The notes under the pieces were generated by a model. That model had not been told where the DNA came from and did no database searches. It worked only from the letters and a program-made list of their open reading frames with translations. Position numbers and translations under genes: made by a program. A stretch of DNA of 64,000 bases from Cognaticolwellia beringensis. Lineage in GTDB: Bacteria; Pseudomonadota; Gammaproteobacteria; Enterobacterales; Alteromonadaceae. Position 1 is the stretch's first letter, and every line of letters starts with the position of its first letter. Where the stretch lies: contig NZ_CP020465.1 of NCBI RefSeq assembly GCF_002076895.1, positions 4,278,001 to 4,342,000 on the forward strand. Direction: 5' to 3'. Positions 44,767-61,543 of this stretch are shown piece by piece.

Positions 44767-47034
44767 TTAAAAGAAGTTAGCTTTAAATTCAACACCCCAA
44801 AAACGAGGCTCGTTTACATAACCGGTTAAGTTGTTAAAATCGATAGCACCGGTAAGCTGTTCTTCATCAGTAATATTACGACCAAATAGTGCTACTTCGT
44901 ATTCTGCACCATCGGAGTACCATTCGTAACCAACACGAACACCACCTTCTAATAACGCGTCACCAGTGAATTCAATTGACTCGTATAAGAAGAAGTTAAC
45001 TTCACTGCGGTAAGACCAATCAGTGTAAACATAAATCTCTCCATCACCGACTTCTTTAGTCCAACGTGCGGCAAAATTAGAAATCCATTCTGGAGATTGT
45101 GGTAATGAATTACCGTCAATCATGGCTAAACCATCGCCATTTAATGGATCAGTGACAGTACAACCACCGCCACAACCTGGCACGGCAACCGTGTCATCTT
45201 GTAACTCAGTGTGGTTATAACTAACACTAGCGGTAAGGGCTAAATCAGGGGTAATAAAGTATTCAGAATCAATTTCAAAACCGTAACCTACTGATTTATC
45301 GGCATTCAATAAACTTGCTACGTTACCTGTTCCACCAACAGCTGTTAATTGTTGATCGCTGACAATATAGTAATAAACCGAGCCATCAACACGTGCAGTA
45401 TTCTCTAAAAATACTGACTTAAAACCCGTTTCAACAGAATCAACTAATTCAGAGTCTGCCGTTGTTGAATTTGCTGAGAACAATAAGCTTCGGCCTTGAA
45501 TACTTGGCGCACGGTAACCACGAGCTAAACGTGCATAAAGATTGGTTTCATCATTCAATACATAATTAGCGCTTAAATCACCACTAATTTGTGTGTCAGC
45601 GACATTGTTACTTTCTGAGAAACTCGGGGCACCAAATGGTGATTGAACTAATTCACCTTGCCATTTACGCTCATCATCAGAATAGCGTAGACCAGCATTG
45701 ATATTTAATTTTTCTGTCACTTCAAAGTCAATTGAACCAAACATTGCCCATGCTTTTGTTTCCATCTTCTGGATAGCAATACCGTCTTGTACACCGCCAC
45801 CAAGTGTATTAAAACTTAAATTATTAATAATTAAGTCTTCATCAAAAGTAAAGAAACCGAATTGATAATCTATTTTTCCGATATCATTACTGGCAATGCG
45901 AACTTCTTGGGTTACTTGTTTATGGCTAGGCATTCTTGCACCAGTTTCTGATGGAAAAGGAATAAAGCCTGGTCCCATGTAGTCTGGTAAGAATGCAGCA
46001 CCGTAACCACCATCAATATCACCAACTGAAAACATTTCAGCTGACTCATAGCCAGTAACAGAAGTTAAGGTATGGTTGCCCATATTATATTCAATTTTTA
46101 AACTGGTACCTTTCATATCAACCGTTTGGTTATTACGAACAGCAGCATCATGAAAAACAGTTTCACGATCAAAGTCATCAACTAAGTCGTTAGTGCCTGG
46201 TTTAATAATATTGGCTCTAAAAACACGTGCATCCGCTTCTGCATCACGGAAGTGATAATTAAATAACGCTGAAAAATCGTCATTAGGCTCCCACAATAGT
46301 TGTACGCGACCCGCTGATTCAGCATAACCACCTAATTGATCTTTTTGCTCAAACCCTGGAGCTTTATTGTCAATCCAGTCATCACGGTCTTGTTGTAATA
46401 GTGCGATTCGTGCTGACAATGTATCGGTTAAGCCACCGCCAATTGCAACACGGAAATCTGTACTACCAAAACTACCGTAAGAACCAGAAATGTTGGCATC
46501 AAAATCTTGTGTTGGTTTTTTCGATTGTACTTTTACAATACCTGCTGGGGTGTTACGGCCAAACAATGTACCTTGAGGACCACGTAAAACTTCTACGCGC
46601 TCAATGTCAAACATTGGCATACCTTTAGTTAAGGCATTTTCTAAAACAACATCATCATAAATTAATGAAACAGGTTGTGATGCTAGCAAATCAAAATCGG
46701 TGTTACCTAAACCTCGAATATAAAAACGAGGAAAAGTACGACCAAAAGAAGACTCAATTAACAAGCTAGGTACTTTCCCAGACAGTGCTCTTACATCCAT
46801 ACCAGAAGAACCTAATACTTCAAGTTTTTTAGGCGTTAATGCCGAAACTGAAATAGGTACATCTTTTATATTCTCTGTACGCTTACGAGCAGTTACTTCA
46901 ATAACTTCAACGCCAACAACATCAGCTACATTAGCATTTTCTTGCGCTAAAGCCGAAGTAGATACAACGGATACAGACGCTAAAATAGCCGCATTTACGC
47001 ATACTGCGAGCGACGTTTTTTTAAAAACATTCAT
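44767..47034 (-). CDS. TonB-dependent receptor, candidate nucleoside/nucleotide receptor
   Basis: Outer-membrane active transport receptor of 755 residues: signal peptide (about 1-35, ending ALA-Q), a plug with VEVIEVTARKRTENIKDVPISV near 45-65 (core VTARKRTEN), RGPQGTLFGRNTPAG, and a barrel ending in an aromatic F (KANFF). The start is the ATG at 47034 behind GGGAGAG. It follows deoB on the same strand by 91 bases and adjoins the nucleoside cluster, which suggests it carries nucleosides or nucleotides over the outer membrane; the sequence alone does not tell the ligand. Confidence 0.85.
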   Translation of the reverse strand: MNVFKKTSLAVCVNAAILASVSVVSTSALAQENANVADVVGVEVIEVTARKRTENIKDVPISVSALTPKKLEVLGSSGMDVRALSGKVPSLLIESSFGRTFPRFYIRGLGNTDFDLLASQPVSLIYDDVVLENALTKGMPMFDIERVEVLRGPQGTLFGRNTPAGIVKVQSKKPTQDFDANISGSYGSFGSTDFRVAIGGGLTDTLSARIALLQQDRDDWIDNKAPGFEQKDQLGGYAESAGRVQLLWEPNDDFSALFNYHFRDAEADARVFRANIIKPGTNDLVDDFDRETVFHDAAVRNNQTVDMKGTSLKIEYNMGNHTLTSVTGYESAEMFSVGDIDGGYGAAFLPDYMGPGFIPFPSETGARMPSHKQVTQEVRIASNDIGKIDYQFGFFTFDEDLIINNLSFNTLGGGVQDGIAIQKMETKAWAMFGSIDFEVTEKLNINAGLRYSDDERKWQGELVQSPFGAPSFSESNNVADTQISGDLSANYVLNDETNLYARLARGYRAPSIQGRSLLFSANSTTADSELVDSVETGFKSVFLENTARVDGSVYYYIVSDQQLTAVGGTGNVASLLNADKSVGYGFEIDSEYFITPDLALTASVSYNHTELQDDTVAVPGCGGGCTVTDPLNGDGLAMIDGNSLPQSPEWISNFAARWTKEVGDGEIYVYTDWSYRSEVNFFLYESIEFTGDALLEGGVRVGYEWYSDGAEYEVALFGRNITDEEQLTGAIDFNNLTGYVNEPRFWGVEFKANFF

Positions 47035-47125
47035 TAAGTACTCTCCCAAGAACTGTTTATGTTTTGTGTATAATATATTTTATTCACTTACCTGTTTAAT
47101 GCGGCAAGTGATTAATTGTGTATTT

Positions 47126-48337
47126 TTATAAATCAAGATCAGACAAAAAACTTGTGCCATAGGGCATTTTGTCTAATTTAAATAGTTCTGCAATTGTTTG
47201 ACCAATATCAGCAAAAGTATTTCTTTCGCCAATATTAACAGATCGAACCTGTTTGTGAAATGCAATCACAGGAACATACTCTCTCGTATGATCATTTCCA
47301 TGCCAAGTTGGATCACAGCCATGATCTGCCGTTAAAAATAACACGTCATCTTCATTCATCGCGCTAATAATTTCAGGTAATCGTAGATCAAAACTTTCTA
47401 ATGCAAGCGCGTAACCCACAGGGTCACGACGATGGCCATAGTCTTGGTCAAAATTGACTAAGTTAGTAAATATCAGACTATTGTCTTGTGCGGTATTAAT
47501 ATGTGAAATGGTTGCATCCACTAAAGCATCTATACCGGTTGCTTTAGTTTTTTCACTGATACCTTGATGCGCGTAAATATCGGCAATTTTACCGACACTG
47601 ATGACATGACCACCCGCTTGGGTAAATACGTCTAATACCGTAGGTGCTGGCGGTAAAACAGAATAGTCTCGTCTATTTCCAGTTCGAGTGAAGTCTTCTG
47701 GACTGTTGCCAATGAAAGGTCGAGCGATAACACGGCCGACATTCATGTCACCCAGTAATTCTCTTACTGTTTCACAATATTTATAAAGATTATCCAAGCC
47801 AAAATGTTCTTCATGAGCCGCCACCTGAAAAACACTGTCAGCAGATGTATAGCAAATAGGTAATCCGGATTTAATATGTGCTTGCCCAAGTTTATTTATA
47901 ATATCGGTACCTGAGGCATGGCAATCGCCTAAAATACCGTCATAACCTGTCGCTTGATTAATTTTTTCTATCAAATCAGTAGGGAAAGCATTACCTTCTT
48001 TTGGGAAGTAGTCCCAATCAAAAAGTACCGGTACACCCATCATCTCCCAATGTCCACTAGGTGTATCCTTACCTGTACTAATTTCTGCTGCATAACCGAA
48101 AGCACCTTGCTCAGGCGCCTGTTTTACAACAGGAAAAGTACACTTGCCGGCTTCAAAAGCCGCTTGAACTAAGCCCATTTTTGCTAAGTTCGTTAATTTG
48201 ATTTCACGTTTTTCGTGCTGATAGAAGTAGCGCGCTAAATTAGCAAAAGTATTGGCACTGATATCGCCAAAGTCCGCTGCATCGGGCGCGTGCCCTATGC
48301 CAAAACTGTCGATTACTAAAACTATTGCTCTTGCCAT
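47126..48337 (-). CDS. deoB: Phosphopentomutase
   Basis: Interconverts (deoxy)ribose 1-phosphate and 5-phosphate, linking nucleoside phosphorylases to DeoC. The 403-residue member of the alkaline phosphatase superfamily has the metal and catalytic motifs DSFGIGHAPDA, SGKDTPSGHWEMMG (catalytic threonine) and ADHGCDPTWHGNDHTREYVP. A RutR-like palindrome sits about 85 bases upstream, overlapping a TTGACC that could be the -35 element. It is divergent from udk and followed by a TonB-dependent receptor. Confidence 0.97.
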   Translation of the reverse strand: MARAIVLVIDSFGIGHAPDAADFGDISANTFANLARYFYQHEKREIKLTNLAKMGLVQAAFEAGKCTFPVVKQAPEQGAFGYAAEISTGKDTPSGHWEMMGVPVLFDWDYFPKEGNAFPTDLIEKINQATGYDGILGDCHASGTDIINKLGQAHIKSGLPICYTSADSVFQVAAHEEHFGLDNLYKYCETVRELLGDMNVGRVIARPFIGNSPEDFTRTGNRRDYSVLPPAPTVLDVFTQAGGHVISVGKIADIYAHQGISEKTKATGIDALVDATISHINTAQDNSLIFTNLVNFDQDYGHRRDPVGYALALESFDLRLPEIISAMNEDDVLFLTADHGCDPTWHGNDHTREYVPVIAFHKQVRSVNIGERNTFADIGQTIAELFKLDKMPYGTSFLSDLDL

Positions 48338-48637
48338 TTTAAATTCCTGTACCCTGTAAGTGGATCAATGTATTTTAACAAATTTTTTAAATTTATCCTC
48401 GTTAATATTGATAAATTTCATGACCAAATGGTCAACATGTGATACTTTACCAAGCAATGAATTATAGACAATAGATATTTTGTAATTATTTAAGGCAATG
48501 CTATGACTTTTGCCTAAATTTTAATGAATTTCAGATTAATTAGTTCATAATATGAGTGCGGTGAGTTGTCTACAACAGTATCGCTATAAATAATTACTTA
48601 ACCCTTTTGTTGTTAATATTTTTTAAGGCTCTCTGTT
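48338..48637. other. Divergent deoB/udk regulatory gap
   Basis: About 300 AT-rich bases without a gene. It contains the operator at 48420-48435 and a possible -10 (ATAATATG near 48546) for udk. No RNA gene was recognised. Confidence 0.5.
48420..48435. promoter_or_regulatory. RutR-like operator, deoB/udk
   Basis: TGACCA-AA-TGGTCA is a perfect 6-base inverted repeat with a 2-base spacer at 48421-48434; with flanks it matches 15 of 16 of the E. coli RutR box TTGACCA-NN-TGGTCAA as I recall it. It is 84 bases from deoB and about 200 from udk. The same palindrome occurs before cdd and, degenerate, before the TetR gene. Confidence 0.8.
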
Positions 48638-49282
48638 TTGCAAACCAATAAACCGACCATTATTGCGGTAACCGGTGCTTCAGCATCAGGAAAATCACTT
48701 TTTGCGCAAACTATTTACGATGAATTATTGCCTGAGTTAGGGTCAAGTGGTATTGCCATCATGAAAGAAGATTCTTATTACAAGAGTCAATCTCATCTGT
48801 CGATGGAAGAACGTATAAAAACAAATTACGACCACCCCAGTGCCTTTGAACATAGCTTATTATCACAACATTTAACCCAGTTAAGTGTCGGTGAAAGCGT
48901 TGATATACCGACATATTGCTATAAAACACATACTCGGCTAGAAGAAACTGTTCACTTAACGCCAACCCCCATCATTTTAATAGAAGGGATTCTCTTATTT
49001 GCTGATAAAGAGCTCAGAGATAAATTTGATATTAAAATTTATATTGATACTCCGTTAGACATTTGCCTTGTCCGTAGAATTAATAGAGATACCATTGAGC
49101 GTTCTCGTAGCATAGCGTCAATTACCGAACAGTATTTAACCACCGTACGTCCTATGTACCATCAGCATATTCAACCAAATAAACCTTTCGCTGATATTGT
49201 GGTGACGCGTGGCGGTAAAAATAGAATGGCAATTGAAATGCTAAAAGCAAAAATTCGTCAACTAATGAATAGCAATTTGTAA
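48638..49282 (+). CDS. udk: Uridine kinase
   Basis: Phosphorylates uridine and cytidine with GTP or ATP (pyrimidine salvage). The 214-residue product has the P-loop GASASGKSLFAQ at residue 13 and a catalytic DSYYK. The start is TTG at 48638, with AAGG ahead; no ATG lies in a suitable place. It points towards nupC, 88 bases away, and away from deoB. Confidence 0.93.
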   Translation: MQTNKPTIIAVTGASASGKSLFAQTIYDELLPELGSSGIAIMKEDSYYKSQSHLSMEERIKTNYDHPSAFEHSLLSQHLTQLSVGESVDIPTYCYKTHTRLEETVHLTPTPIILIEGILLFADKELRDKFDIKIYIDTPLDICLVRRINRDTIERSRSIASITEQYLTTVRPMYHQHIQPNKPFADIVVTRGGKNRMAIEMLKAKIRQLMNSNL

Positions 49283-49370
49283 ACTTGTACAAAAATAAAA
49301 ATCAACATAGATGTAATTTAAATAAATATAATTAAAAAATAACGATAACAAAATAATTTATGAGGTAATT

Positions 49371-50615
49371 ATGGAATTAGGTGCTCTTCGAGGAGTCATT
49401 GGCATTTTTGCGCTATTGGCATTGGCGTTTTTTTTATCAAAAGACCGCAGCGCAATTAATTGGCGAACTGTAGGCTTTGCTTTTGCATTACAGATTATAT
49501 TAGGTGCGTTTGTACTTTATGTGCCATTTGGTAAAGATGTCTTAGGTTCAATAACTAATGGTGTTCAACAGGTTATTAACAGTGCACAAGCAGGCATAAG
49601 CTTTCTATTCGGAGGTTTAGGTACTGATGCAATGTACGATAATGGCGTTGGTTTTGTTTTCGCTATTCGTGTTCTCCCCGTTATTATATTTTTCTCATCG
49701 CTTATCGCCGTGCTTTACTACCTTAACATTATGCAATGGGTGGTAAAAATAATCGGTGGTGGTTTACAAAAACTGTTAAAAACTTCAAAGCCTGAATCCC
49801 TTTCTGCTACCGCTAATATTTTTGTCGGGCAAACAGAAGCTCCCTTAGTTATTCGCCCCTATATTGCAAAAATGAGTCAGTCTGAACTGTTTGCCATTAT
49901 GGTAGGCGGCTTAGCCTCTGTTGCAGGTTCCATCTTAGCTGGCTATGCGGGTTTAGGTGTAAAACTTGAATACTTAATTGCCGCCTCTTTTATGGCAGCA
50001 CCCGGTGGTTTGCTTATGGCGAAACTCCTCCTCCCTGAAACAGAAGAAATTAACAATGATTACAGCGATGTAGAGCTGGCTGAAGCAGGTGCTAAACCGG
50101 CTAATGTTATTGATGCAGCAGCCACGGGTGCCGCTTCAGGCCTTAAGCTTGCGGTTAACGTAGGTGCTATGTTACTTGCCTTTATAGCTATTATCGCTTT
50201 ACTTAATTCTATGGTTACAGGCTTTGGCAGCTTATTAGGCTTTGAAGGCATTACTATTGAATGGCTACTCGGCTACATTTTTGCCCCATTCGCTTTCCTT
50301 ATCGGTGTCCCTTTTGAAGAAATGTTGCAAGCAGGTAGTTTTATTGGCCAAAAAATTGTCGTTAATGAGTTCTTTGCCTACGTAAATTTTGTTGAAATTA
50401 AAGACACGTTATCACCCACCACTCAAGCGATCGTCACCTTTGCTTTGTGCGGTTTTGCTAACTTATCTTCTATTGCTATTTTATTGGGTGGAATTGGTTC
50501 AATGGCACCCAATCGCCGTCCTGATATTGCACGTTTAGGCATGAAAGCTATGCTTGCAGCTACAATGGCAAACTTGATGAGTGCGGCTATCGCCGGTGTA
50601 TTTGTTAGCTTATAG
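49371..50615 (+). CDS. nupC: Na+-coupled concentrative nucleoside transporter (NupC/CNT)
   Basis: Inner-membrane importer of nucleosides. The 414-residue protein has the CNT hallmarks GQTEAPLVIRPY (first hairpin, nucleobase-binding) and PFEEMLQAGSFIGQKIVVNEFFAYVNF (second, with NEFFAY), close to the Na+-coupled CNT of Vibrio cholerae. Ten or more hydrophobic segments are present. Followed by deoC and tdk on the same strand. GAGG lies just upstream of the ATG. Confidence 0.93.
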   Translation: MELGALRGVIGIFALLALAFFLSKDRSAINWRTVGFAFALQIILGAFVLYVPFGKDVLGSITNGVQQVINSAQAGISFLFGGLGTDAMYDNGVGFVFAIRVLPVIIFFSSLIAVLYYLNIMQWVVKIIGGGLQKLLKTSKPESLSATANIFVGQTEAPLVIRPYIAKMSQSELFAIMVGGLASVAGSILAGYAGLGVKLEYLIAASFMAAPGGLLMAKLLLPETEEINNDYSDVELAEAGAKPANVIDAAATGAASGLKLAVNVGAMLLAFIAIIALLNSMVTGFGSLLGFEGITIEWLLGYIFAPFAFLIGVPFEEMLQAGSFIGQKIVVNEFFAYVNFVEIKDTLSPTTQAIVTFALCGFANLSSIAILLGGIGSMAPNRRPDIARLGMKAMLAATMANLMSAAIAGVFVSL

Positions 50616-50682
50616 CTGTTTGAGTTAGCTTTCAGTTTTAAGCGGTCAGTTATTAGTGGTAAATTTGGGTTTTGAGGTCAAC

Positions 50683-51456
50683 ATGAGTACTATTAAAGCA
50701 TACGCACAGCGTGCACTTTATATGATGGATTTAACCAGTTTAACCGACGCTGAAAATGCTGAGGATATTATCCAGCTGTGTATAAATGCCAAATCGCCAC
50801 GCGGTAACACGGCGGCGATTTGTATATTTCCTCGTTTTGTCCCATTAGCGAAAAAACAGCTAGTAGCGCAAGGTACCCCTGATATAAAAATTGCCACGGT
50901 AACTAATTTTCCACACGGCAACGACGATATTGAGATTGCCGTTGCTGAAACAAAAGCTGCTATCGCTTATGGCGCTGACGAAGTTGATGTTGTATTCCCC
51001 TATAAAGCCTTAATAAACGGCAATGAAGAAGTAGGTTTTGACCTCGTCAAAGCTTGTAAACAAGCTTGTGGAAATAGCATGCTGCTGAAAGTAATTATAG
51101 AAACTGGCGAGCTGAAAACTGACAAGCTTATTACACAAGCCAGTGAAATTTGTATCGCAGCGGGCGCTGATTTTATAAAAACCTCAACCGGTAAAGTTGC
51201 TGTTAATGCCACCCCTAAAGCGGCTGAGTTAATGTTAAAAGTTATTAAAAATAAAAATACACAAGTTGGCTTTAAGCCTGCTGGTGGCGTGAAAAATGCA
51301 GAAGATGCCGCTATTTACCTAGATTTAGCGACAGATATTTTAGGTGCTAATTGGGCGACTAAAGCCAACTTTAGATTTGGAGCAAGTAGCTTGTTAACAA
51401 ATTTACTTCACACCCTAGGGGCGAGTAATGAAACCGCAGACCCAACAAGCTATTAA
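50683..51456 (+). CDS. deoC: Deoxyribose-phosphate aldolase
   Basis: Cleaves deoxyribose 5-phosphate into glyceraldehyde 3-phosphate and acetaldehyde, the last step of deoxynucleoside catabolism. The Schiff-base lysine is in FIKTSTGK (about residue 167), with the conserved Asp-Glu-Val-Asp stretch [11 protein letters not shown]. The ATG at 50683 (GAGG before it) gives 257 residues, like E. coli DeoC; an upstream frame from 50656 is extended by 9 unmatched residues. Between nupC and tdk. Confidence 0.95.
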
Positions 51457-51522
51457 TTAATATATTCCAAACAAATTTAAACATCACTCATCAAACAGTC
51501 ATAATTAGGACATTATTAAGCA

Positions 51523-52101
51523 ATGGCACAATTATATTTTTATTATTCAACGATGAATGCCGGTAAATCGACTCACCTTTTACAGTCATCTTATAATTAT
51601 CAAGAACGTGGCTTAGCGACATTATTGTTTACGGCACAAATAGACGATAGATTTGCCAAAGGTAAAGTTTCATCAAGATTAGGCATACATGCCGACGCCC
51701 TGTTATTTGATGATAATACCGATATTTTTAGCCAAGTAAAAAGCCAAATTAGTGAGAGTAAAATTGCTTGTATTTTAATTGATGAAGCCCAGTTTTTAAC
51801 TAAACGGCAGGTTAAGGAATTAACCAATATTGTTGATGAATTAAAAATTCCGGTGCTAGCTTATGGCATTCGTACAGACTTTCTTGGCGAAACGTTTATT
51901 GGCAGTGCCGCGCTATTAGCCTGGGCAGATAAATTGGTGGAATTAAAAACCATTTGTCATTGTGGTAAAAAAGCCAACTTTGTAATGCGATGTGATGAAC
52001 ACGGCAATGCTGTAAAGGGCGGAGAACAAATAGAAGTGGGTGGTAATGAACGCTACGAATCTCTTTGTCGTAGACACTTTAAAGCGCTAGTTTGGGATTA
52101 A
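51523..52101 (+). CDS. tdk: Thymidine kinase
   Basis: Type II thymidine kinase of salvage. The 192-residue product has the P-loop [13 protein letters not shown], the LIDEAQFL magnesium motif, and the zinc-binding cysteines ([17 protein letters not shown] and LCRRH). It follows deoC by 66 bases and ends in a shared terminator with convergent deoA. Confidence 0.96.
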
Positions 52102-52147
52102 TATCAATTTAAACAACTGAATTAGAATGTCTTTAAATATAACTGAT

Positions 52148-52177
52148 AAAAAAGGAATGCCATGGCATTCCTTTTTT
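52148..52177. terminator. Bidirectional terminator between tdk and deoA
   Basis: A perfect palindrome with AAAAAAGGAATGCC arms and A/T tracts at both ends. Confidence 0.95.
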
Positions 52178-52209
52178 AATTTTCTATAACAAGTTTAACT
52201 TGTGAGCAA

Positions 52210-53526
52210 CTATGCAGAAATGGTTTGATAAATAACCGGTGTTTGCTCAGCTGCCTTTTCGCCAATAACTAAAGCCGTTTGGTATTGCTGACTCGCAAGA
52301 TTTGCTGAGTTTTCATCTTCAGCATGCACACGGGCTAATACGTCACCACGGTTAACTAACGTGCCTATTGGCAACACTCGGTCAAAACCAACACTATGAT
52401 CAATTTGTTGACCATTAGCCGTACGACCGCCTTTCAAACCAACAACAGCTAAACCAATATCACGTGTTTGCATGCCATTGATGTAGCCATGATCTAGGGC
52501 AATAACATCCTTAATACAGTTGGCACGTTGCATTGAACGCCAAGGATCTTCCATAAAATCACTTGGGCCACCTAACGCATGAATCATCTTGTTAAATATT
52601 TCAGCGGCGGCACCAGAAGCCAAAACACTGTTGATTTTTGCTAAGGCTTTATCTTCATTTTCTGCAACTTTTGCACTAACTAACATAGCTTTAGCTAATG
52701 AGACTACCACGGCATGCAGTCGAGGTTCACGCAGTGTGCCGTTTAAGTATTTAACCGTTTCAGCCATTTCCAAAGCATTACCAGCCGTAGCACCTAACAC
52801 TTGGTTCATATCCGTGATAATAGCTTGCGTTGGCACACCTGCGCCATTAGCAACATTAACAATGCTTTGCGCTAACGCTTTTGCATCATCAATGTTTGAC
52901 ATCATTGCACCATTGCCAACTTTAACGTCCATAACCAAAGTATCAAGCCCTGCCGCCAATTTTTTAGACAATATAGAAGCCGTGATCAAGGGAATAGATT
53001 CTACGGTAGCGGTAATGTCTCGTATGCCATATAAACGTTTATCTGCAGGTGCTAAATTATCAGTTTGGGAAATAATCGCCATCCCTAAATCTTTTACTAT
53101 ACGTTTAAATTCACCAATGCTGGGTTGAACATTAAAACCAGCGATACTTTCTAGTTTATCTGCTGTACCACCCGTATGACCTAAGCCACGACCTGCAATC
53201 ATAGGCACATAAGCACCACAAGCAGCAACAATAGCGGCCAACATAAAGCTAACCTTATCGCCAACACCGCCCGTTGAGTGTTTATCAACGATTGGGCCTT
53301 CTAGTTCAGGCCAAGACAACACATCACCTGAATTTTTCATCGCCATGGTAAAGTCGATAATTTCACGAGTTTCCATGCCTTTTTGAAAAATCGCCATCGC
53401 CATTGAACCGGCTTGGGCATCATTAAAATCTTTTGTTACTAATCCATCAACAAAGCTTTGAATTTGTTCTTTAGAGAGTGAGCCACCATTTCGTTTGGTA
53501 CGAATTATTTCTTGTGGTAATAACAT
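52210..53526 (-). CDS. deoA: Thymidine phosphorylase
   Basis: Phosphorolysis of thymidine or deoxyuridine to base plus deoxyribose 1-phosphate. The 438-residue product has DKHSTGGVGDKVSF at about residue 80, the phosphate-binding GRGLGHTGGTADKLESI and the C-terminal alpha/beta domain. It is 12 bases behind cdd and in the same operon, so cytidine is deaminated, then phosphorolysed (by a uridine or thymidine phosphorylase). Confidence 0.97.
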   Translation of the reverse strand: MLLPQEIIRTKRNGGSLSKEQIQSFVDGLVTKDFNDAQAGSMAMAIFQKGMETREIIDFTMAMKNSGDVLSWPELEGPIVDKHSTGGVGDKVSFMLAAIVAACGAYVPMIAGRGLGHTGGTADKLESIAGFNVQPSIGEFKRIVKDLGMAIISQTDNLAPADKRLYGIRDITATVESIPLITASILSKKLAAGLDTLVMDVKVGNGAMMSNIDDAKALAQSIVNVANGAGVPTQAIITDMNQVLGATAGNALEMAETVKYLNGTLREPRLHAVVVSLAKAMLVSAKVAENEDKALAKINSVLASGAAAEIFNKMIHALGGPSDFMEDPWRSMQRANCIKDVIALDHGYINGMQTRDIGLAVVGLKGGRTANGQQIDHSVGFDRVLPIGTLVNRGDVLARVHAEDENSANLASQQYQTALVIGEKAAEQTPVIYQTISA

Positions 53527-53538
53527 GAACTAAAATCC

Positions 53539-53958
53539 TTATTTTTCAAGTAAATCTTTGGGAGTAAAAGCATCAGGTAATAGTTCGTTAACTGTCCATT
53601 GCTTTTTATTATTATTATGGTTAACAGCCATAACCAGTGCGTCTGGTGCTAAAAATTCGACAATAACTTGTCGACAAGCACCACAAGGCGGCGTTAACTT
53701 TTCTTGGTTGGTATAAACCACTAGAGCTTTAAATACTTGTTCGCCTGAAATAACACCTTGGGCTAAACAATTGCGTTCTGCACAAACGGTTAAGCCGTAC
53801 GACGCATTTTCTACATTACAGCCTTTAACGATTTTACCGCTAGCCGTTAACGCTGCAGCACCAACGTGAAAATTACTGTATGGTGCATAGGCTTTTTCAA
53901 AGCCTGCTTTAGCAGCACTAACCAGTGCTAATATTTCATCACTTTTAATCTTTGACAT
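53539..53958 (-). CDS. cdd: Cytidine deaminase
   Basis: Zinc enzyme converting (deoxy)cytidine to (deoxy)uridine. The 139-residue product is of the small tetrameric (Bacillus-type) form: NFHVGAA, CAERNCL with catalytic Glu, and PPCGACRQVI with zinc cysteines. The ATG at 53958 is the right start; a longer frame from 53988 would begin within the operator. First gene of cdd-deoA, with a RutR-like palindrome immediately upstream. Confidence 0.94.
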   Translation of the reverse strand: MSKIKSDEILALVSAAKAGFEKAYAPYSNFHVGAAALTASGKIVKGCNVENASYGLTVCAERNCLAQGVISGEQVFKALVVYTNQEKLTPPCGACRQVIVEFLAPDALVMAVNHNNNKKQWTVNELLPDAFTPKDLLEK

Positions 53959-53972
53959 TATAAAGCCTTTAT

Positions 53973-53988
53973 CTGACCAAGTGGTCAA
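53973..53988. promoter_or_regulatory. RutR-like operator, cdd-deoA
   Basis: TGACCA-AG-TGGTCA, a perfect 6-base inverted repeat with a 2-base spacer at 53974-53987 (15 of 16 to the recalled RutR box). It lies only 15 bases above the cdd start, just upstream of its ribosome site, so binding would block initiation or elongation. Confidence 0.8.
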
Positions 53989-54379
53989 GTTGTATCTATC
54001 CTAGTAAATCACACATAGAAAAGCAACTATAAAAACATTAAATACTGGCTATTAAATTAAAATACCAATATTACTCATTATCTGAGTATTCTATGGATTG
54101 AAACTACCTATTTCGGTGCTACTTATGAATAATTATCGCTGTATCTATACTACTATTTAGGCCATGTAAGCACCTATGATCGTTAGCAACGAGTTAAAGT
54201 AATAAATGCCTTTTATGTTTAGCTTTTGCTGTGTATAAAGTAAACCATCATATTTAACGACATTGGTTTAGATGAAACGACTATTAGCAGAACTTATCAT
54301 GCTTGAAACTTAGTTTGAAAGTTCAAAAAAAAAGCCAACATAACTGTTGGCTTTTAACGTGAGGTTTAATTACGAGTTA
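53989..54379. other. Gene-free stretch between cdd and the large receptor gene
   Basis: About 390 AT-rich bases. A terminator for the receptor gene (54330-54355) lies at its left end and the cdd promoter at its right. No gene or RNA was recognised. Confidence 0.5.
54330..54355 (-). terminator. Terminator of the large TBDR gene
   Basis: AAAAGCCAACA pairs with TGTTGGCTTTT around a TAAC loop; long T-tract follows on the - strand. Confidence 0.92.
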
Positions 54380-57300
54380 TTAGAACTTGTAGCTAACACC
54401 TACTTTTACACGCCATGTTGAATCTTCAGTATAAAATTTATCGTAGTTGTTAGTGTTAGAAGTTGGTCTGTGGTAAACATATTGTCCGTTATCCGGATCA
54501 ATTGTAAACTCAGCTAACTCAATAGTACCAAAATCACTACCACGTACTTTACCCTTAGTGCTATAAATCATGTTCAAAAGGTTATCTACTGTAAAGTAAA
54601 AAATACCTTTGTGATCATTCATAAAGCCAGGAATTTCTTGGCGTATGCTTAAATCAAGCGTAGTTACCCAAGGCGTTGTACTCACACCTTTAGGTAAGTA
54701 ACCACCTGCGTATTTATCTAAGCCTAATGTATTAATAGACTTAAAGAAATCTGCTTCAGCTTCTGGCGAAGTAAATCTTACGTTATCATCACCAGGGCTT
54801 GGGATATAAGGTAAGAATGAATCACTGAATGTACCAGGGCTAAGTAAACCATACGGGTCTCTGCCTGGGCCATTGCGACCATCTACGTCATTACCATCTA
54901 GGTAATAAGTAATTGGCTTACCAGAACGACGTTCAAAGAATACGTTAACATTGGTGTTATAACCTTCAACAAACTCATGTTTGAAACCTAAGTTCACAAC
55001 AAATCTGTGCTCAGTTTCAAAGCTAGAACGACCTACTAATGCTTCGTTACGGTTAATCGTTGTATTAAAACCGTAGTTACTACCTGCTGTAGAGCTCGTG
55101 CTTGGATGCGCATCCGTAACATCTTGGTTTGTATACGATGTTGTTACACTTACGCCATTGTCCCAAGCTTTACTTAGTACAGTACTGAATATTTTTGAAG
55201 TACCATCTTTACCAGCATTAGTTAGCATTAAGTCTGTCGTGTTGCCATCAGCATCGTCATATAAAATACGACCGCCATCTGATGTCGTACCTGATTCATC
55301 ACCGAATAAACTTGCATCTTGCCAAAATGAGGTGTTTTCAGCTTTTTTGTACATGAACTCAGTCGTCCACAGCACGTCTTCACCAATAAATGGAATATCT
55401 ATTAGGTAATCAGCAGCAATTTGATAACGCCAATCTGAAGGTAAGTCGTAGCTAGGATCTGTAAAGTTTGTACCCGCAAAAATTTCTGAGCCAGCGACTT
55501 GATCAACAAGTGGTTGATATGGAACTTTAATATCAACATCTGTAAATGTACCACGCTCATCAAATCTTGCACGGCCAACACCTGGATTAGAGTAAGCGTT
55601 AGAGATCCATACTGTTGGTTGACCACCAGAGAAACGGCCAATACCACCACGAACAACTAAATCTTCAGATGCATCCCAGTTAAACCCAAAACGTGGTAAG
55701 AAAATATCTACGCCATCAAGGTTCTCAGTATTGTCATAACCTGTACGATCAAAAGCTTGACTGTTGAATGCCGGAGAGTCGTCTGACGCTAAGCGTTCAT
55801 AACGAAGACCAAAATCTAGCGTTAAATCGTCAGAGAAAGCCCACTCATCATGAATATAAAGTGCATGCTCATCACGAACAAACTCAGCAGCAGCATCGCT
55901 AGGGTTAAGTGACGTTGCATTTTGATAGATAACACGTTCGGCAATTCTATTTTCAAAATCTTCAAGGCTATCGAATGTGTAATCACCTTTAGTGTTTTGT
56001 AAGAATAAATTGAATATGTCTAAACGCTTAAACTGATAACCAAAAGAAAGACTGTGATCGTCAATTAGGTAATCGCCATCAAGTCCAACAATGAAGGTTT
56101 TTTTATTTAATTCATTAGAATGACGAGAATGATCAGCGCCGATAGCAATATTACCCGATTCTGTTTGGATAACGGTATCAGCATAATTGCCTAATGAAGC
56201 TTGCGTTGTAGGGTTGTCTAAATACGTCAGGCTAAGTTGAGTCGAGAAATCATCATTCCAGTCAGAATATAATTTAAAGGCATAGTTATTTAGCTCTTCA
56301 ACACGGTTATACCAATGCGTAGATAAACGTAACTCACCTGAAAATGATGTTTGGTTCGCTGTGCGGTTACCTTTATTGTATTGGTAGGTGAAAGCTGCAC
56401 GGTGATCATCATTAATATTCCAATCTAACTTCAATAGGAATTTTTCATCATCAGTTTTTGGCGCTAAGTCCCAAACACCAGCATCGACACCGTAGACTTC
56501 TTCAGCAATACGTCTGACTTCATTATAATCTGCTACGCTTGCATCAGCTTCATTAGGTGCACTTCCACCTTCAGGGCCCCACTCAACTGGTGAAGTCGCA
56601 TCGTAGAATTCATATGATGCAAAGAAGAATAATTCATCTTTAATTATAGCTCCACCAAACGTGGCGCCATAGGTTGTTTCGTCAAATTCAGTTGGAATTT
56701 CATTTTCACCATCTTTTGGTGTGCCTGCCATGCCGTCATTTTGAGTTTCATAAAAGAATGAACCTGAATACTCATTACCACCTGACTTTGTAACAGCGTT
56801 TATCTTAGCGCCTTGGAAGCCGCTATCTTGAGCGTTGAAAGGAGATACATCTATAGTGACCTGATCAATCGCTTCTAATGAAATAGGAGAGCGCGTAGTC
56901 GGGTAACCATTGGCATTAAGGCCAAAATCATCATTTTGCCCAATACCATCAACACTTATACTGTTAAAACGAGGGTTAGTACCAGCAACACTTAGCTCAC
57001 CATCTTTTGAAGATAAAACCGCTAAAGGGTTATTACGAATAATATCCTTGATATCACGATCAAAACTTGGGGCATTAGTAATGTCATCTGAACTAAAGTA
57101 ACTACTACTACCAATATTTCCTGAAAGGATTTGGCTACCTGTTACTGAAATTCTTTCTATTTGCTCTTTAGGATCAAGCTGAACATTTAACTTAAATGTA
57201 TCACCTAAGGTTAAATAGACATCGTTATAGGTATTTGCTCCGTCTTTACCTGTCACTGTAACCTTATAAGGGCCACCAACACGTAAACCTTTGCTTGAAA

Positions 57301-57511
57301 ATGAACCTGAGTCATTTGTTGTTGTTGTTGTTTTTGTGCCTGATGGTAAATGCACTATTTCAACTTTAGCATTAACCGAACTTTGACCTGCTGGGTTTAA
57401 AATACTACCGCGAATAGCAGAAGACGTATCATTTGCCATAGCCGATGTTGATAATCCTAGCGCAAGTACAACTGCACCAGTAATAAGTGAGAGACGATGA
57501 TTTTTCATCAT
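54380..57511 (-). CDS. Oar-like TonB-dependent receptor with CarboxypepD_reg domain
   Basis: A 1,043-residue outer-membrane protein: signal peptide (about 1-26, ending SAMA-N), a carboxypeptidase-regulatory-like beta domain (about 30-115), a plug (RISVTGSQIL to TKSGGNEYSG, about 120-240), and a large barrel ending in an aromatic F. Such Oar-like receptors often handle large polymers or peptides. It is the neighbour of the divergent tetR-nuclease-phosphatase operon and the deo genes, so nucleic-acid fragments are a plausible ligand. A degenerate RutR-like palindrome lies 322 bases upstream of its start. Confidence 0.88.
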   Translation of the reverse strand: MMKNHRLSLITGAVVLALGLSTSAMANDTSSAIRGSILNPAGQSSVNAKVEIVHLPSGTKTTTTTNDSGSFSSKGLRVGGPYKVTVTGKDGANTYNDVYLTLGDTFKLNVQLDPKEQIERISVTGSQILSGNIGSSSYFSSDDITNAPSFDRDIKDIIRNNPLAVLSSKDGELSVAGTNPRFNSISVDGIGQNDDFGLNANGYPTTRSPISLEAIDQVTIDVSPFNAQDSGFQGAKINAVTKSGGNEYSGSFFYETQNDGMAGTPKDGENEIPTEFDETTYGATFGGAIIKDELFFFASYEFYDATSPVEWGPEGGSAPNEADASVADYNEVRRIAEEVYGVDAGVWDLAPKTDDEKFLLKLDWNINDDHRAAFTYQYNKGNRTANQTSFSGELRLSTHWYNRVEELNNYAFKLYSDWNDDFSTQLSLTYLDNPTTQASLGNYADTVIQTESGNIAIGADHSRHSNELNKKTFIVGLDGDYLIDDHSLSFGYQFKRLDIFNLFLQNTKGDYTFDSLEDFENRIAERVIYQNATSLNPSDAAAEFVRDEHALYIHDEWAFSDDLTLDFGLRYERLASDDSPAFNSQAFDRTGYDNTENLDGVDIFLPRFGFNWDASEDLVVRGGIGRFSGGQPTVWISNAYSNPGVGRARFDERGTFTDVDIKVPYQPLVDQVAGSEIFAGTNFTDPSYDLPSDWRYQIAADYLIDIPFIGEDVLWTTEFMYKKAENTSFWQDASLFGDESGTTSDGGRILYDDADGNTTDLMLTNAGKDGTSKIFSTVLSKAWDNGVSVTTSYTNQDVTDAHPSTSSTAGSNYGFNTTINRNEALVGRSSFETEHRFVVNLGFKHEFVEGYNTNVNVFFERRSGKPITYYLDGNDVDGRNGPGRDPYGLLSPGTFSDSFLPYIPSPGDDNVRFTSPEAEADFFKSINTLGLDKYAGGYLPKGVSTTPWVTTLDLSIRQEIPGFMNDHKGIFYFTVDNLLNMIYSTKGKVRGSDFGTIELAEFTIDPDNGQYVYHRPTSNTNNYDKFYTEDSTWRVKVGVSYKF

Positions 57512-58191
57512 ATTATTCCTTGATATAAGTTAAATTTTTGTTTTGTCATATGTTTATTTAAATTTTTACTTAACTAATTACTAATCTATTTATTATTTTT
57601 AAGCTTACTCAATTGAAATTAAAACAGAGTTTTCTTACATTTTCATTACAAACTTTTACAAGTCACTTTCTTTTAATTTACACACTTTTACAGATTGAAT
57701 TAATAAAACAAAGACGCATTCATTTAAAGTATAAGTATCAACAACTTAAAGTTAAATTTAAAACGAAGACAAAAACAACATATAACAAAAAACACAGTTC
57801 ATCTCATTAACCATAACAAAAAATCATAAAAACAAACCATTTGGTCAAGATAAAATAAAGTATGATTTTAACTCTGTTTATATAAGGGCTGTATTAATTA
57901 AAATTATTTAACCAAACATAAAATTATTTTTGAAAATGATTTAAACTTCATATTCAGCAATACAATATGTATTAAAACAGTGCCTTAACCAGACATTTAA
58001 ATTAAACTAGCTAATTTTTAAAGAATAAACGTCGATTCACCAATGAATATACAAGAATTAACGCTCAAAATTGCTGACAGTGCTACATTTAGCATTATAA
58101 AATTTTAGGCCCAGAATAAGCTAAAAAATGTAACATTAAGCGCTTAACGTAATGTTAATCAATATAAAAAATCAATAGAAAGGTTATTCTC
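57512..58191. other. Gene-free divergent regulatory region, very AT rich
   Basis: About 680 bases between the large receptor gene and the divergent tetR gene. It contains the degenerate palindrome at 57833-57848. A 65-codon frame (57613-57810) is very basic and low in complexity and is unlikely to be real. The rest shows no RNA gene; a long leader or regulatory region is likely. Confidence 0.5.
57833..57848. promoter_or_regulatory. Degenerate RutR-like operator by the tetR/receptor pair
   Basis: ACCATTTGGTCAA keeps the right half-site TGGTCAA and ACCA of the left; 13 of 16 positions match. It lies 344 bases from tetR and 322 from the receptor, far for direct repression, though leaders may be long. 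Confidence 0.5.
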
Positions 58192-58824
58192 GTGAGCAAC
58201 AATACTAATAATGAGAAACAAGGGAGCATTAGGGCCAGAAGTGAGGCTGTAATTCTAGTCGCAGCCCAAAAAGAGTTTATTCTGCAAGGATTTAAAGGTG
58301 CTACCGTTCAATCAATAGCTGATAGCGCCAATCTGCCTAAAGCAAATGTATTATATTATTTTAAAAATAAAGAAAATATCTACCATGCGGTTTTACAACT
58401 AACTTTAGATACGTGGGATCAAGGTATTGGTGATCTTGATATTAACGACGGTCCTGTCGTTGCTATTGAAAAATTTATCGCTTCGAAAGTAAAAATGTCT
58501 TTTGAGCACCCAGAAGCATCGAAAATTTATGCTATGGAAATTATCCAAGGTGCATTACATTTAAAAGAGTTTGCCCGTACTTATTTGCGCCAGTGGGTAA
58601 GAGAAAAGGCAAAAATATTTCAAGTGTGGATCGATAGCGGTGAAATGAAAGATGTCGACCCTGTTAAATTGATTTTCTTAATTTGGTCATCCACTCAACA
58701 TTATGCTGATTTTGAACAACAAATTTTAACGATTATGAATCGTGCAGATTACGAAGAAGACGATATGACCCAAGTAACTGAGTTTTTAACGGATTTTATA
58801 TTGCGTGGTTGTGGCTTAAAATAG
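58192..58824 (+). CDS. RutR-like TetR-family regulator
   Basis: A 210-residue TetR protein: N-terminal helix-turn-helix (about residues 30-58, VQSIADSANLPKANVLYYF) and an effector domain resembling E. coli RutR over its length (for example LIFLIWSSTQHYADFEQQI near the C-terminus, where RutR has IFMIWASTQHYADFATQ). In E. coli the ligands are uracil and thymine. The start is GTG at 58192 behind AAGG. Co-oriented with a nuclease 8 bases downstream. I infer it regulates the nearby nucleoside genes through the three palindromes. Confidence 0.85.
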   Translation: MSNNTNNEKQGSIRARSEAVILVAAQKEFILQGFKGATVQSIADSANLPKANVLYYFKNKENIYHAVLQLTLDTWDQGIGDLDINDGPVVAIEKFIASKVKMSFEHPEASKIYAMEIIQGALHLKEFARTYLRQWVREKAKIFQVWIDSGEMKDVDPVKLIFLIWSSTQHYADFEQQILTIMNRADYEEDDMTQVTEFLTDFILRGCGLK

Positions 58825-58832
58825 GAGTTTAT

Positions 58833-60035
58833 ATGAAGATATTTACAACATTATTGGCAACTACGTTGTTAGTATATTCAGGTATTGCTATGTCAGAAAC
58901 ATCAAATAAGTCCCCTTCAAGTTTACGCATTGCCACTTTCAATGTCAGCATGGAAGCATTAAATTACTTGCCGTCAGAATTAGGTAAAGAGCGTAAACCC
59001 ACAGGAAAAGAATTAGCGACGGCGTTAGCCAATGATAATCAGCAAATAAAAAATATTGCGGAAATTATTCAACAAGTAAACCCTGATATTATTCTGTTAA
59101 ATGAGTTTGATGGCAACGATGCCACACACCAATCTTTAAAACGCTTTTTAGCGCAATATTTAGCAAAAAGTCAACAGGGTAATGCTGCACTTAATTATCC
59201 TTATTTTTATCAAGGCCCGGTGAATACGGGTGTTGCTTCGGGCTATGACTTAAACAATGATAACAAAGCTGGTGAATTGCCGAATGATGCTTATGGCTAT
59301 GGGCTTTTCTCAGGGCACTTTGCGATGGCATTGTTATCAAAACACCCTATTGTTGAAGAAAAAATCAGAACATTCCAAATGTTTAAATGGCGTGATATGC
59401 CCAATGCTTTAGTGCCAGTAAATCCGGACTCAAAAACACCTTGGTTTAATCAACAAGCCTGGAACAACTTTCGACTATCATCTAAATCTCACTGGGATAT
59501 ACCAGTTAACATCAATGGTCATGAATTACACATTTTGGCTAGCCATCCTACCCCTCCGGTATTTGATGGGCCAGAAGACAGAAACGGTAAACGAAACTTT
59601 GACGAAATTCGTTTCTGGAGTGATTACCTAACGCCAAGTGCTGCCAGTTATATTTATGACGACAACAAGCAATTCGGCGGGTTAGCTGAAAATAAAGCTT
59701 TTGTTATTTTGGGTGATTTAAATGCTGATGCTTTTGATGGTAATGCCATTAAATCGGGCATCAATCGCTTAATAAATCATCCTCGTGTTGTAGATCCCAA
59801 GCCAAGTAGCGAAGGGGGTAAGTTACACCGCAAGGATAACCCAAACGCAAAATACCATACCGCATTCTGGGGCATGCGAGCAGATTACGTTTTACCGGCG
59901 AAAGCGCAATTTAAGGTACTGGGTTCAGGTATATTTTGGCCAAAAGAAAGTGAAAATGAATTTCGTTTAATTAAAGACCGAGCGGCTTCATCTGATCATC
60001 GACTTGTTTGGGTTGATGTTGCATTTAAAGAATAG
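58833..60035 (+). CDS. Secreted endonuclease/exonuclease/phosphatase-family enzyme
   Basis: A 400-residue exported protein: signal peptide (about 1-20), then the DNase I-like fold with RIATFNVSMEAL, the metal-binding Glu in ILLNEFDGND, ILASHPTPPV, VILGDLNADAF, and the catalytic histidine in SSDHRLVWVD. The ATG at 58833, behind TAGGAG, is chosen; the upstream frame overlaps tetR. Family members hydrolyse DNA, RNA or phosphoesters; the exact substrate is open. Between tetR and phoA, so probably part of extracellular nucleic-acid use. Confidence 0.85.
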   Translation: MKIFTTLLATTLLVYSGIAMSETSNKSPSSLRIATFNVSMEALNYLPSELGKERKPTGKELATALANDNQQIKNIAEIIQQVNPDIILLNEFDGNDATHQSLKRFLAQYLAKSQQGNAALNYPYFYQGPVNTGVASGYDLNNDNKAGELPNDAYGYGLFSGHFAMALLSKHPIVEEKIRTFQMFKWRDMPNALVPVNPDSKTPWFNQQAWNNFRLSSKSHWDIPVNINGHELHILASHPTPPVFDGPEDRNGKRNFDEIRFWSDYLTPSAASYIYDDNKQFGGLAENKAFVILGDLNADAFDGNAIKSGINRLINHPRVVDPKPSSEGGKLHRKDNPNAKYHTAFWGMRADYVLPAKAQFKVLGSGIFWPKESENEFRLIKDRAASSDHRLVWVDVAFKE

Positions 60036-60112: not shown

Positions 60113-61543
60113 ATGAAAAAAATCATTCCAACGTTATTAACTAGTCTATTGGTCATATCTTGTAGCCAACTGCAAGCGACAAGCCATGCTCCGGTAAACA
60201 CAGTGACGAGTAACATACCAAAAAACATTATTATGGTTGTTGGTGACGGTATGGGGCCGGCTTACACCACTGCCTATCGTTATTACAACGACAACCCAGC
60301 AACTCCAGAAATTGAACAAACGGTTTTTGACCGTAACTTCACGGGTACAAGTAGCACCTATCCAGCCCCTGAATCAGGTTACGTGACAGACTCTGCGGCG
60401 AGCGCAACAGCCCTTTCTACCGGCGTAAAAACCTATAATAATGCGATTGGTTTAGATATCAACAGACAGCCAATTGAAACGGTTTTGGAATATGCGAAAC
60501 AAAGCGGTAAAAAAACCGGTGTTGTGGTTACTGTCCAGATAAATCATGCCACACCCGCTTCTTATTTAGCACATAATGTCCATCGCTATAACTACAACGC
60601 TATTGCTGACAGTTATATTGATGATGGCATAAAAGCCGATTTATATTTTGGTGGGGGCTGGGAATATTTTATCCGTAAAGATAGAAACTTAGTCAATGAG
60701 TTTATTGAGTCAGGCTTTCATTATATTGACAAATATAGCGACATTAACAGTATTCCTGAAAATATGCCGGTGTTGGGTTTATTTGATAAAACCAATTTAC
60801 CTTGGGCATTAGATGACACGAACAAGCACCGTTTATCGCTGATGACGAAAGCGGCAACAAAACAGTTAGAAAATAAAAATGGCTTTTTTATGTTAGTTGA
60901 AGGTAGCCAAATTGACTATGGTGGACACGCTAGAGATATTGCTGCAGCCATGGCAGAAATGGATGATTTAGCAAAAACTATTGAATACCTTGAGGCCTAT
61001 GTTGCAGAAAATCCAGATACTTTAGTGGTGATCACAGCCGATCATAGCACTGGTGGTTTAACTATCGGTAAAAAAACTGAACGTTCAGACCCTAACATTA
61101 ATAGTAAGTACCTATGGAAACCTGAGTTTTTAAGAACCATGACCATGTCACCAAAAACCATCGCTATGAGGTTCACTAATGAAGACTTATCTTTGGCACA
61201 GGTTAATGACTTACTGTCATTCGACATATCATCTCAGGACTTAAATAATTTACAGCAAGCTAAACTCAGTGATAAAGATATCGTAAAACAATTCAGTTTA
61301 TTATCTGCTGCCGATAAAAAAGGGAAAAGAACACCTAAAAATCACCAGTCAGTACTGAATGTAATTACAGAAATAATTGATATGAAAACAAATACCGGTT
61401 GGGGCTCTATTAGCCCATCTGGCACACATACTGGTATCGACGTGCCGGTATTTGCGTTTGGTAAAGGCAGTGAAATGTTTAACGGCTTTCAAGATAATAC
61501 CGATATTGCCAAGAAAATATTTACCCTGTTAGGTAAAAAGTAA
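60113..61543 (+). CDS. PhoA-type alkaline phosphatase lipoprotein
   Basis: A 476-residue phosphomonoesterase. Motifs: VVGDGMG with metal Asp45, DSAASATALSTG with catalytic Ser94, NHATPASYLAHN, EGSQIDYGGHA and TADHSTGG. A lipobox VISC with Cys17 makes it a likely lipoprotein, which would tether it to the cell surface or periplasmic face. It is 77 bases behind the nuclease and likely strips phosphate from nucleotides, leaving nucleosides for NupC. A strong terminator follows. Confidence 0.92.
   Translation: MKKIIPTLLTSLLVISCSQLQATSHAPVNTVTSNIPKNIIMVVGDGMGPAYTTAYRYYNDNPATPEIEQTVFDRNFTGTSSTYPAPESGYVTDSAASATALSTGVKTYNNAIGLDINRQPIETVLEYAKQSGKKTGVVVTVQINHATPASYLAHNVHRYNYNAIADSYIDDGIKADLYFGGGWEYFIRKDRNLVNEFIESGFHYIDKYSDINSIPENMPVLGLFDKTNLPWALDDTNKHRLSLMTKAATKQLENKNGFFMLVEGSQIDYGGHARDIAAAMAEMDDLAKTIEYLEAYVAENPDTLVVITADHSTGGLTIGKKTERSDPNINSKYLWKPEFLRTMTMSPKTIAMRFTNEDLSLAQVNDLLSFDISSQDLNNLQQAKLSDKDIVKQFSLLSAADKKGKRTPKNHQSVLNVITEIIDMKTNTGWGSISPSGTHTGIDVPVFAFGKGSEMFNGFQDNTDIAKKIFTLLGKK

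Follow-up and report, generated by a model that had tools for sequence, protein, structure and literature searches.

In enteric bacteria, nucleoside uptake and the deo, cdd and udp genes are repressed by CytR, a LacI-family protein, and DeoR, of the DeoR family; the inducers classically associated with nucleoside uptake and cleavage genes are nucleosides and deoxyribose phosphate. In Escherichia coli, the uracil-responsive regulator RutR (YcdC) controls rutA-G and carAB, and we take its operator to be TTGACCANNTGGTCAA. In Shewanella, the ExeM nuclease and nucleotidases serve a system that uses DNA as a nutrient. To our knowledge, the switching-on of such pathways in bacteria that eat environmental DNA is poorly described. 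RutR regulons in non-enteric groups were predicted earlier, according to the available text of PMC5343134.

We analysed a 64,000-nt stretch of the Cognaticolwellia beringensis genome (the window). A preliminary description had proposed that three RutR-like palindromes tie its nucleoside genes to a neighbouring tetR gene of the RutR family. Genes were named using HMM profiles: deoB, udk, nupC, deoA and cdd exceeded model cut-offs, and deoC and tdk were named from Pfam. The order is deoB (minus strand), a site, udk-nupC-deoC-tdk (plus), deoA and cdd (minus), a site, oar (minus), a site, and tetR with two phosphoesterase-type genes (plus):

47126..48337, minus strand: deoB, phosphopentomutase (NF003766, 555 bits, cut-off 256)
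48421..48434, no strand: operator-like perfect palindrome TGACCA-AA-TGGTCA between deoB and udk (pattern TGACCANNTGGTCA, 0 mismatches)
48638..49282, plus strand: udk, uridine kinase (NF004018 and TIGR00235 above cut-off)
49371..50615, plus strand: nupC, concentrative nucleoside transporter (TIGR00804 above cut-off; Pfam)
50656..51456, plus strand: deoC, deoxyribose-phosphate aldolase (PF01791)
51523..52101, plus strand: tdk, thymidine kinase (PF00265)
52210..53526, minus strand: deoA, thymidine phosphorylase (TIGR02643 above cut-off)
53539..53958, minus strand: cdd, cytidine deaminase, ATG at 53958 (NF004064 and TIGR01354 above cut-off)
53974..53987, no strand: operator-like perfect palindrome TGACCA-AG-TGGTCA upstream of cdd (pattern TGACCANNTGGTCA, 0 mismatches)
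54380..57511, minus strand: oar, Oar-like TonB-dependent receptor with a carboxypeptidase-regulatory-like N-terminus (PF25183, PF13620, PF00593)
57833..57848, no strand: weaker palindrome between oar and tetR, one half-site intact (2 mismatches in the 14-mer, 57834-57847; 3 in the 16-mer TTGACCANNTGGTCAA)
58192..58824, plus strand: tetR, RutR-like TetR-family regulator, the proposed repressor (PF00440 and PF08362; nearest solved structures are RutR)
58833..60035, plus strand: endonuclease/exonuclease/phosphatase-family protein with a signal-peptide-like N-terminus, by eye (PF03372)
60113..61543, plus strand: alkaline-phosphatase family protein with a lipoprotein-like N-terminus, by eye (PF00245)

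The locus looks like a set for the stripping, import and breakdown of nucleotides and nucleosides. The gene at 58833..60035 is likely co-transcribed with tetR. Because their N-termini, read by eye, resemble a signal peptide and a lipoprotein signal, respectively, the PF03372 and PF00245 proteins would lie outside the cytoplasm.

A pattern search confirmed both perfect palindromes and the third site, previously given as a 13/16 version. The deoB/udk site precedes the deoB ATG (48337) by 83 nt and udk by about 203 nt. The cdd site lies 15 nt upstream of the cdd ATG; a TTG-start version of the cdd reading frame overlaps it and the ATG-start version is clear of it. The third site lies upstream of both its neighbours, oar by 322 nt and tetR by 344 nt. 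Compared with the presumed RutR operator, each strong site matches 13 of the 14 fixed bases and the third matches 11. In E. coli itself, that operator, as given in the preliminary description, was only partly borne out: the match upstream of carA has one mismatch, and the box upstream of rutA/rutR has three.

The window contains five matches with up to two mismatches, versus 1.77 ± 1.16 in shuffles, of which 1 in 100 reached five. Perfect matches are not scattered through the genome: the entire 4.66 Mb contains two, both in the window, and the reversed-pattern control none. At up to two mismatches, the genome yields 170 matches and the control 147. These loose matches are therefore mostly noise and were not used to call targets. 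There are six other one-mismatch sites in the genome; five of them (1023271, 1859358, 2010405, 3886808 and 4496477) lie inside longest reading frames and were set aside as targets, and the sixth is at 2714956.

The deoB/udk and cdd sites are widely kept in the Colwelliaceae, with the 2-base spacer free. A site with at most one mismatch occurs within 320 nt upstream of cdd in 40 of 42 loci (32 perfect; 32 distinct 26-mers) and upstream of udk in all 22 loci (21 perfect, 1 with one mismatch; 11 distinct 26-mers), counts in which some genomes were fetched twice. In a second set of loci, 32 of 34 have such a site at cdd (24 perfect) and 7 of 7 a perfect site at deoB. In shuffled 310-nt windows, by comparison, a site with at most one mismatch arose in 4 of 2000 and a perfect site in none. 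Information content is 1.6-2.0 bits at palindrome positions and 0.3-0.9 in the spacer; the arm values are inflated, as sites were picked by motif fit, and the independent evidence consists of the spacer, which was left free, together with the fixed position and the shuffle comparison. Exceptions were L196 and L206, with no site of at most one mismatch before cdd (L206 has a perfect site before tetR), and G027, with none directly before cdd.

The oar-tetR site is kept within the genus, here 16 genomes of Cognaticolwellia species and strains filed as Colwellia, and is weaker beyond it. It was in register in 7/7 aligned genus sequences (six with 2 mismatches, G014 with 3). Among 38 copies of oar, the 450 nt upstream contained a site with at most one mismatch in 7 and at most two in 24. 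Autoregulation of tetR through a site of its own is unsupported in the genus: in the genus loci of the second set, the 300 nt preceding tetR contained no site within three mismatches.

The cdd palindrome was also considered as a terminator, which was rejected because conservation is confined to the arms and the spacer is variable. Promoter scans returned promoter-like sites no more commonly than in shuffles. By eye, a conserved TTGCTT-N17-TAGGAT block, absent from the scan output, precedes the cdd operator by about 10 nt and could be the cdd promoter.

The distribution of the sites follows that of the TetR protein. An orthologue (at least 62% identity) is present in 25 of 78 related genomes, and these 25 contain 57 perfect sites, versus 8 in the reversed-pattern control, with at least one site in 23. 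G036 and G042 have the orthologue and no perfect site, and the 19 kb fetched from G042 contained no site with at most one mismatch. In 37 of the 53 genomes lacking the orthologue, 24 perfect sites were found (control, 15), and 15 of these 37 genomes carry one. The surroundings of all 24 were viewed, and none adjoins a deo or cdd homologue. At deoA loci of orthologue-free genomes, a site with at most one mismatch occurred within 1.5 kb in 1 of 16; this sole exception, G049, has two sites at its deoA locus and RutR-like TetR genes on the same contig.

The genome also encodes two RutR-like paralogues, at C1:4469132 and 4491972, inside urate/xanthine and urate/allantoin gene clusters, and the sites might belong to one of these, the adjacent tetR being incidental. 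Other RutR-like proteins do seem to use the motif. In L219 and L225, perfect sites are found close to xdh; in G024, between xdh and a tetR of the RutR-like kind (40% identical) with puuE after it; and in G030 and G039, ahead of genes that resemble ribokinase and nucleoside hydrolase, gene calls that rest on matches below family cut-offs, the second gene being cut at the end of the fetched stretch. G039 has another perfect site before an oar homologue. Because G024, G030 and G039 have these sites at nucleoside or purine genes, lack the orthologue and each carry another RutR-like TetR, the motif is, judging from sequence, common to the RutR-like family and not exclusive to the window TetR clade, while the deo/cdd sites go with the window clade. 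However, four genus genomes without a second RutR-like TetR (G011, G012, G013 and G015) keep 2-3 perfect sites each; a 66-residue match in G015 (E 7e-4) was disregarded as a paralogue. Moreover, the 19 kb fetched around paralogue L084 contained no match up to two mismatches, and that around L085 a single one, about 3.9 kb from the paralogue and within the reading frame of a peptidase. Finally, the window TetR shares Lys52 with RutR, a residue that homology modelling sets facing a DNA base (PMC10891134, available text), and the two own-genome paralogues carry Arg there. We consider it improbable that a paralogue owns the sites. Since the sites track the orthologue and persist in genomes without RutR-like paralogues, the window TetR protein is the likely binder. 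Conservation, co-occurrence, this persistence and the lack of random scatter among perfect matches together give strong support to the original proposal that the palindromes are linked with the nucleoside genes and the neighbouring tetR.

The resemblance of this protein to RutR was upheld for the fold, for the recognition helix and for the larger part of the uracil pocket, but not for membership of the RutR group as profile models define it. The protein matched the TetR_N domain PF00440 (41.1 bits, cut-off 24), as did 19 of 19 orthologues tested, and the RutR C-terminal domain PF08362 (153.6 bits, cut-off 25). It fell below both RutR equivalog models, TIGR03613 (164.5 versus 368 bits) and NF011584 (140.6 versus 230 bits), which E. 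coli RutR passes with 385.5 and 463.6 bits, respectively. Both own-genome paralogues, one further orthologue and two tested proteins of the xdh group also missed these cut-offs. The top eight structure matches of a structure model (mean pLDDT 83.8) were all RutR chains, with E down to 3.2e-12. RutR contacts uracil through W77, Y97, W167, Q171 and Q179, in a pocket that holds the bare base (PMC10891134, available text). The window TetR has Phe in place of Y97, and the other four residues are kept. The Y97-to-Phe change could alter ligand preference.

In a 50-row tree, the window TetR was placed in a 25-row clade with a support of 100/100 and both own-genome paralogues elsewhere; E. coli RutR formed a long branch of unsure placement, and the root is for drawing only. 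In the nearest group, 15 of 16 regulators have a xanthine dehydrogenase gene within 10 kb, and the ancestral regulator may for this reason have governed base catabolism generally, rather than rut genes. The earlier suggestion that RutR itself had been rewired to nucleoside breakdown is partly supported, namely in its link to nucleoside genes; by the models the protein is not RutR, and its closest relatives are found near xanthine dehydrogenase.

The regulon might already be recorded in RegPrecise under RutR for Alteromonadales, the protein being that database's RutR. PMC5343134, in its available text, describes RutR regulons in 68 genomes, 13 groups and 743 target genes with taxon-specific motif changes, and its supplement may already list this one. 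That text, however, names no deo, cdd or nucleoside target for RutR, and the missed cut-offs, the separate clade and the lack of a RutA match in 16 genomes also speak against this identity, which we think rather unlikely. Among the matches listed, no literature title or abstract opening named this regulon.

Probable targets were also found outside the window. A one-mismatch site at C1:3314205-3314218, roughly 1 Mb from the window, precedes by about 128 nt the likely ATG of the gene for a large nuclease with Endonuclease I, lamin-tail and ExeM/NucH domains, the last above cut-off. This ExeM-type nuclease is probably secreted. Relatives (E <= 1e-40) occur in 11 of 16 genus genomes and form two grades of identity, 76-91% and 48-61%; each of the 11 carries a site with at most one mismatch before the longest reading frame. 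Seven of the 11 loci have a further such site within the frame itself, where it may be coding sequence. The best pgi homologue is preceded at 143-160 nt by a site with at most one mismatch in 8 of 16 genus genomes (5 perfect), C. beringensis not among them. The 16 genus genomes contain 40 perfect sites, 32 of them at deoB/udk and cdd (the G008 cdd site assigned solely from distance), five at pgi, and one each at the nuclease (G001), an adenosine deaminase gene adjoining an ExeM-like gene (G003) and oadGA (G005). The sites at pgi and oadGA, and the small excess of 24 over 15 in orthologue-free genomes, are what would be expected if the palindrome served an unrelated, more global regulator. Yet part of that excess consists of sites at nucleoside or purine genes where the genome carries another RutR-like TetR, and 15 of 16 deoA loci without the orthologue also lack sites, so we find a global regulator scarcely credible. 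The regulon of the window TetR likely comprises the receptor, the two probably exported phosphoesterase-type enzymes, NupC, the deo, cdd, udk and tdk products and the ExeM-type nuclease. The scope first proposed, deo genes, held for the deo and cdd sites but appears too narrow, given the DNA-utilisation locus and the distant nuclease.

The sites, their conservation and co-occurrence, the protein family and the pocket residues were computed directly; from these we infer binding, repression and a ligand. Very probably, the window TetR is a base-responsive repressor of a DNA- and nucleoside-utilisation regulon that binds TGACCA-NN-TGGTCA. As a dimer, it would shut the regulon when substrate is absent. 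One shared site would control deoB and possibly also the udk-nupC-deoC-tdk operon; the cdd site, cdd-deoA; and the weaker site, oar and perhaps the tetR-phosphoesterase-phosphatase operon. The distant Endonuclease I/ExeM-type nuclease would be under the same repressor. In the proposed direction of flow, the nuclease would cut external DNA, the Oar-like receptor would pass fragments or nucleotides as its substrate, the two phosphoesterase-type enzymes, if exported, would strip phosphate, NupC would import nucleosides, and Cdd, DeoA, DeoB and DeoC would break them down. A free pyrimidine base from DeoA, thymine or uracil, would then bind the RutR-type pocket and release the repressor. In the 16 genus genomes, the RutA model found no match and no hydantoinase exceeded its cut-off; sub-cut-off hydantoinase matches occurred in all 16 genomes, 4 of which gave longer ones (E about 1e-54). 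The pyrimidine bases that DeoA sets free may for this reason accumulate or be salvaged, and so be usable as a signal.

The TetR protein might instead bind the sites and sense a nucleoside or a (deoxy)ribose phosphate in the manner of CytR or DeoR. The regulon is one of nucleoside uptake and cleavage, CytR has nucleosides as inducers (PMC4052901, available text), and the residue that replaces Tyr97 is a change within the pocket. However, the unchanged state of the other four contact positions, in a pocket that in RutR holds a bare base, points to a free base, and a nucleoside or sugar-phosphate ligand is the less probable choice, albeit the most serious competitor. As to the fullest form of the base-responsive model, we judge the chances to be even that one pyrimidine-base-sensing repressor runs the complete Colwelliaceae DNA-foraging programme, from nuclease, receptor and phosphoesterases to deo enzymes, with pgi included in half of the genus genomes, having kept the RutR operator and most of the pocket without the Rut pathway, with undegraded base from eaten DNA as the signal of external DNA.

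In a group of marine bacteria, one repressor may thus switch on the use of DNA as food, and a concrete regulator, operator and target list are offered for the use of environmental DNA. The data suggest a regulator family in which the target pathway changes among purine bases, uracil and whole DNA, but the DNA site, and probably the greater part of the ligand pocket, is kept. The RutR-like family is thus a good case for the study of regulon evolution.

Compared with CytR and DeoR, the proposed system has similar target genes, but the regulator belongs to a different family and the operators of those two repressors are unlike its motif. With the Shewanella DNA-as-nutrient system it shares the ExeM/NucH domain of its nuclease; the proposed regulator differs, the available texts of PMC3223726 and PMC8289736 naming no RutR for Shewanella DNA use. 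The RutR-like regulators next to xdh in Marinobacter, Pseudomonas, Oceanospirillaceae and Cellvibrionaceae are closer, being 48-56% identical, having the same recognition-helix Lys and, in some loci, a perfect or one-mismatch site near xdh. Their neighbourhood, however, is one of xanthine, urate and allantoin catabolism (an xdhB homologue in 32 of 40 loci), not of deo genes. E. coli RutR is alike in fold, in Lys52, in four of five contacts examined and, judging from the one-mismatch match at carA, in a near-identical operator, whereas the window TetR scores below both RutR models, has Phe for Tyr97 and occurs in a genus whose 16 searched genomes gave no rutA match, where sites and neighbours point to nucleoside and DNA utilisation. 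What appears to be new here is a RutR-family repressor, with the family operator and most of the pocket, placed on a DNA-utilisation regulon.

An operator-like site with 0-1 mismatch to TGACCA-NN-TGGTCA also precedes pgi, encoding glucose-6-phosphate isomerase, in 8 of the 16 genus genomes (loci L119, L121, L122, L124 and L126, and L266-L268), and is missing before this gene in the remaining 8, including the window's own genome. According to these sequences, pgi is a putative target that has been gained or lost within the genus. A perfect site was also found upstream of the oxaloacetate decarboxylase genes oadG-oadA in a single genome, G005 (locus L125).

A further receptor gene adjoins deoB, both in the window and in several genus loci:

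Window 44767-47049: TonB receptor, after deoB; best match of siderophore type, below the cut-off.

This protein could be a second nucleotide-related receptor. In one Colwellia MAG (locus L208), a 69%-identical TetR gene has a different set of neighbours, among them nupC and a distant deoC homologue. This locus carries one perfect site and one with a single mismatch, and its gene set may represent a second version of the regulon.

The window's own genome encodes two RutR-like paralogues:

G000, contig C1, 4469132 (L084): purine-catabolism cluster, with xdhB, urate oxidase, hydroxyisourate hydrolase and ureidoglycolate lyase.
G000, contig C1, 4491972 (L085): purine-catabolism cluster, with urate oxidase, allantoinase PuuE and a xanthine-type permease; a Tsx-like match is weak.

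Because both paralogues are located within purine-catabolism clusters, three RutR-like sensors may serve nucleic-acid breakdown in this genome.

Perfect sites were also observed before ribokinase-like and nucleoside-hydrolase-like genes in G039 (L106) and G030 (L112), representing two genera that lack the window TetR clade and possess other RutR-like TetR genes. These sites perhaps mark a second nucleoside regulon sharing the motif. Finally, xdh has a perfect site nearby in L219 and L225, from Thalassolituus and an Oceanospirillaceae MAG. Next to the L219 site are genes with weak matches to a putative B6 ABC transporter, and a TetR gene with 52% identity lies nearby. These two loci appear to combine an identical operator with a different pathway.
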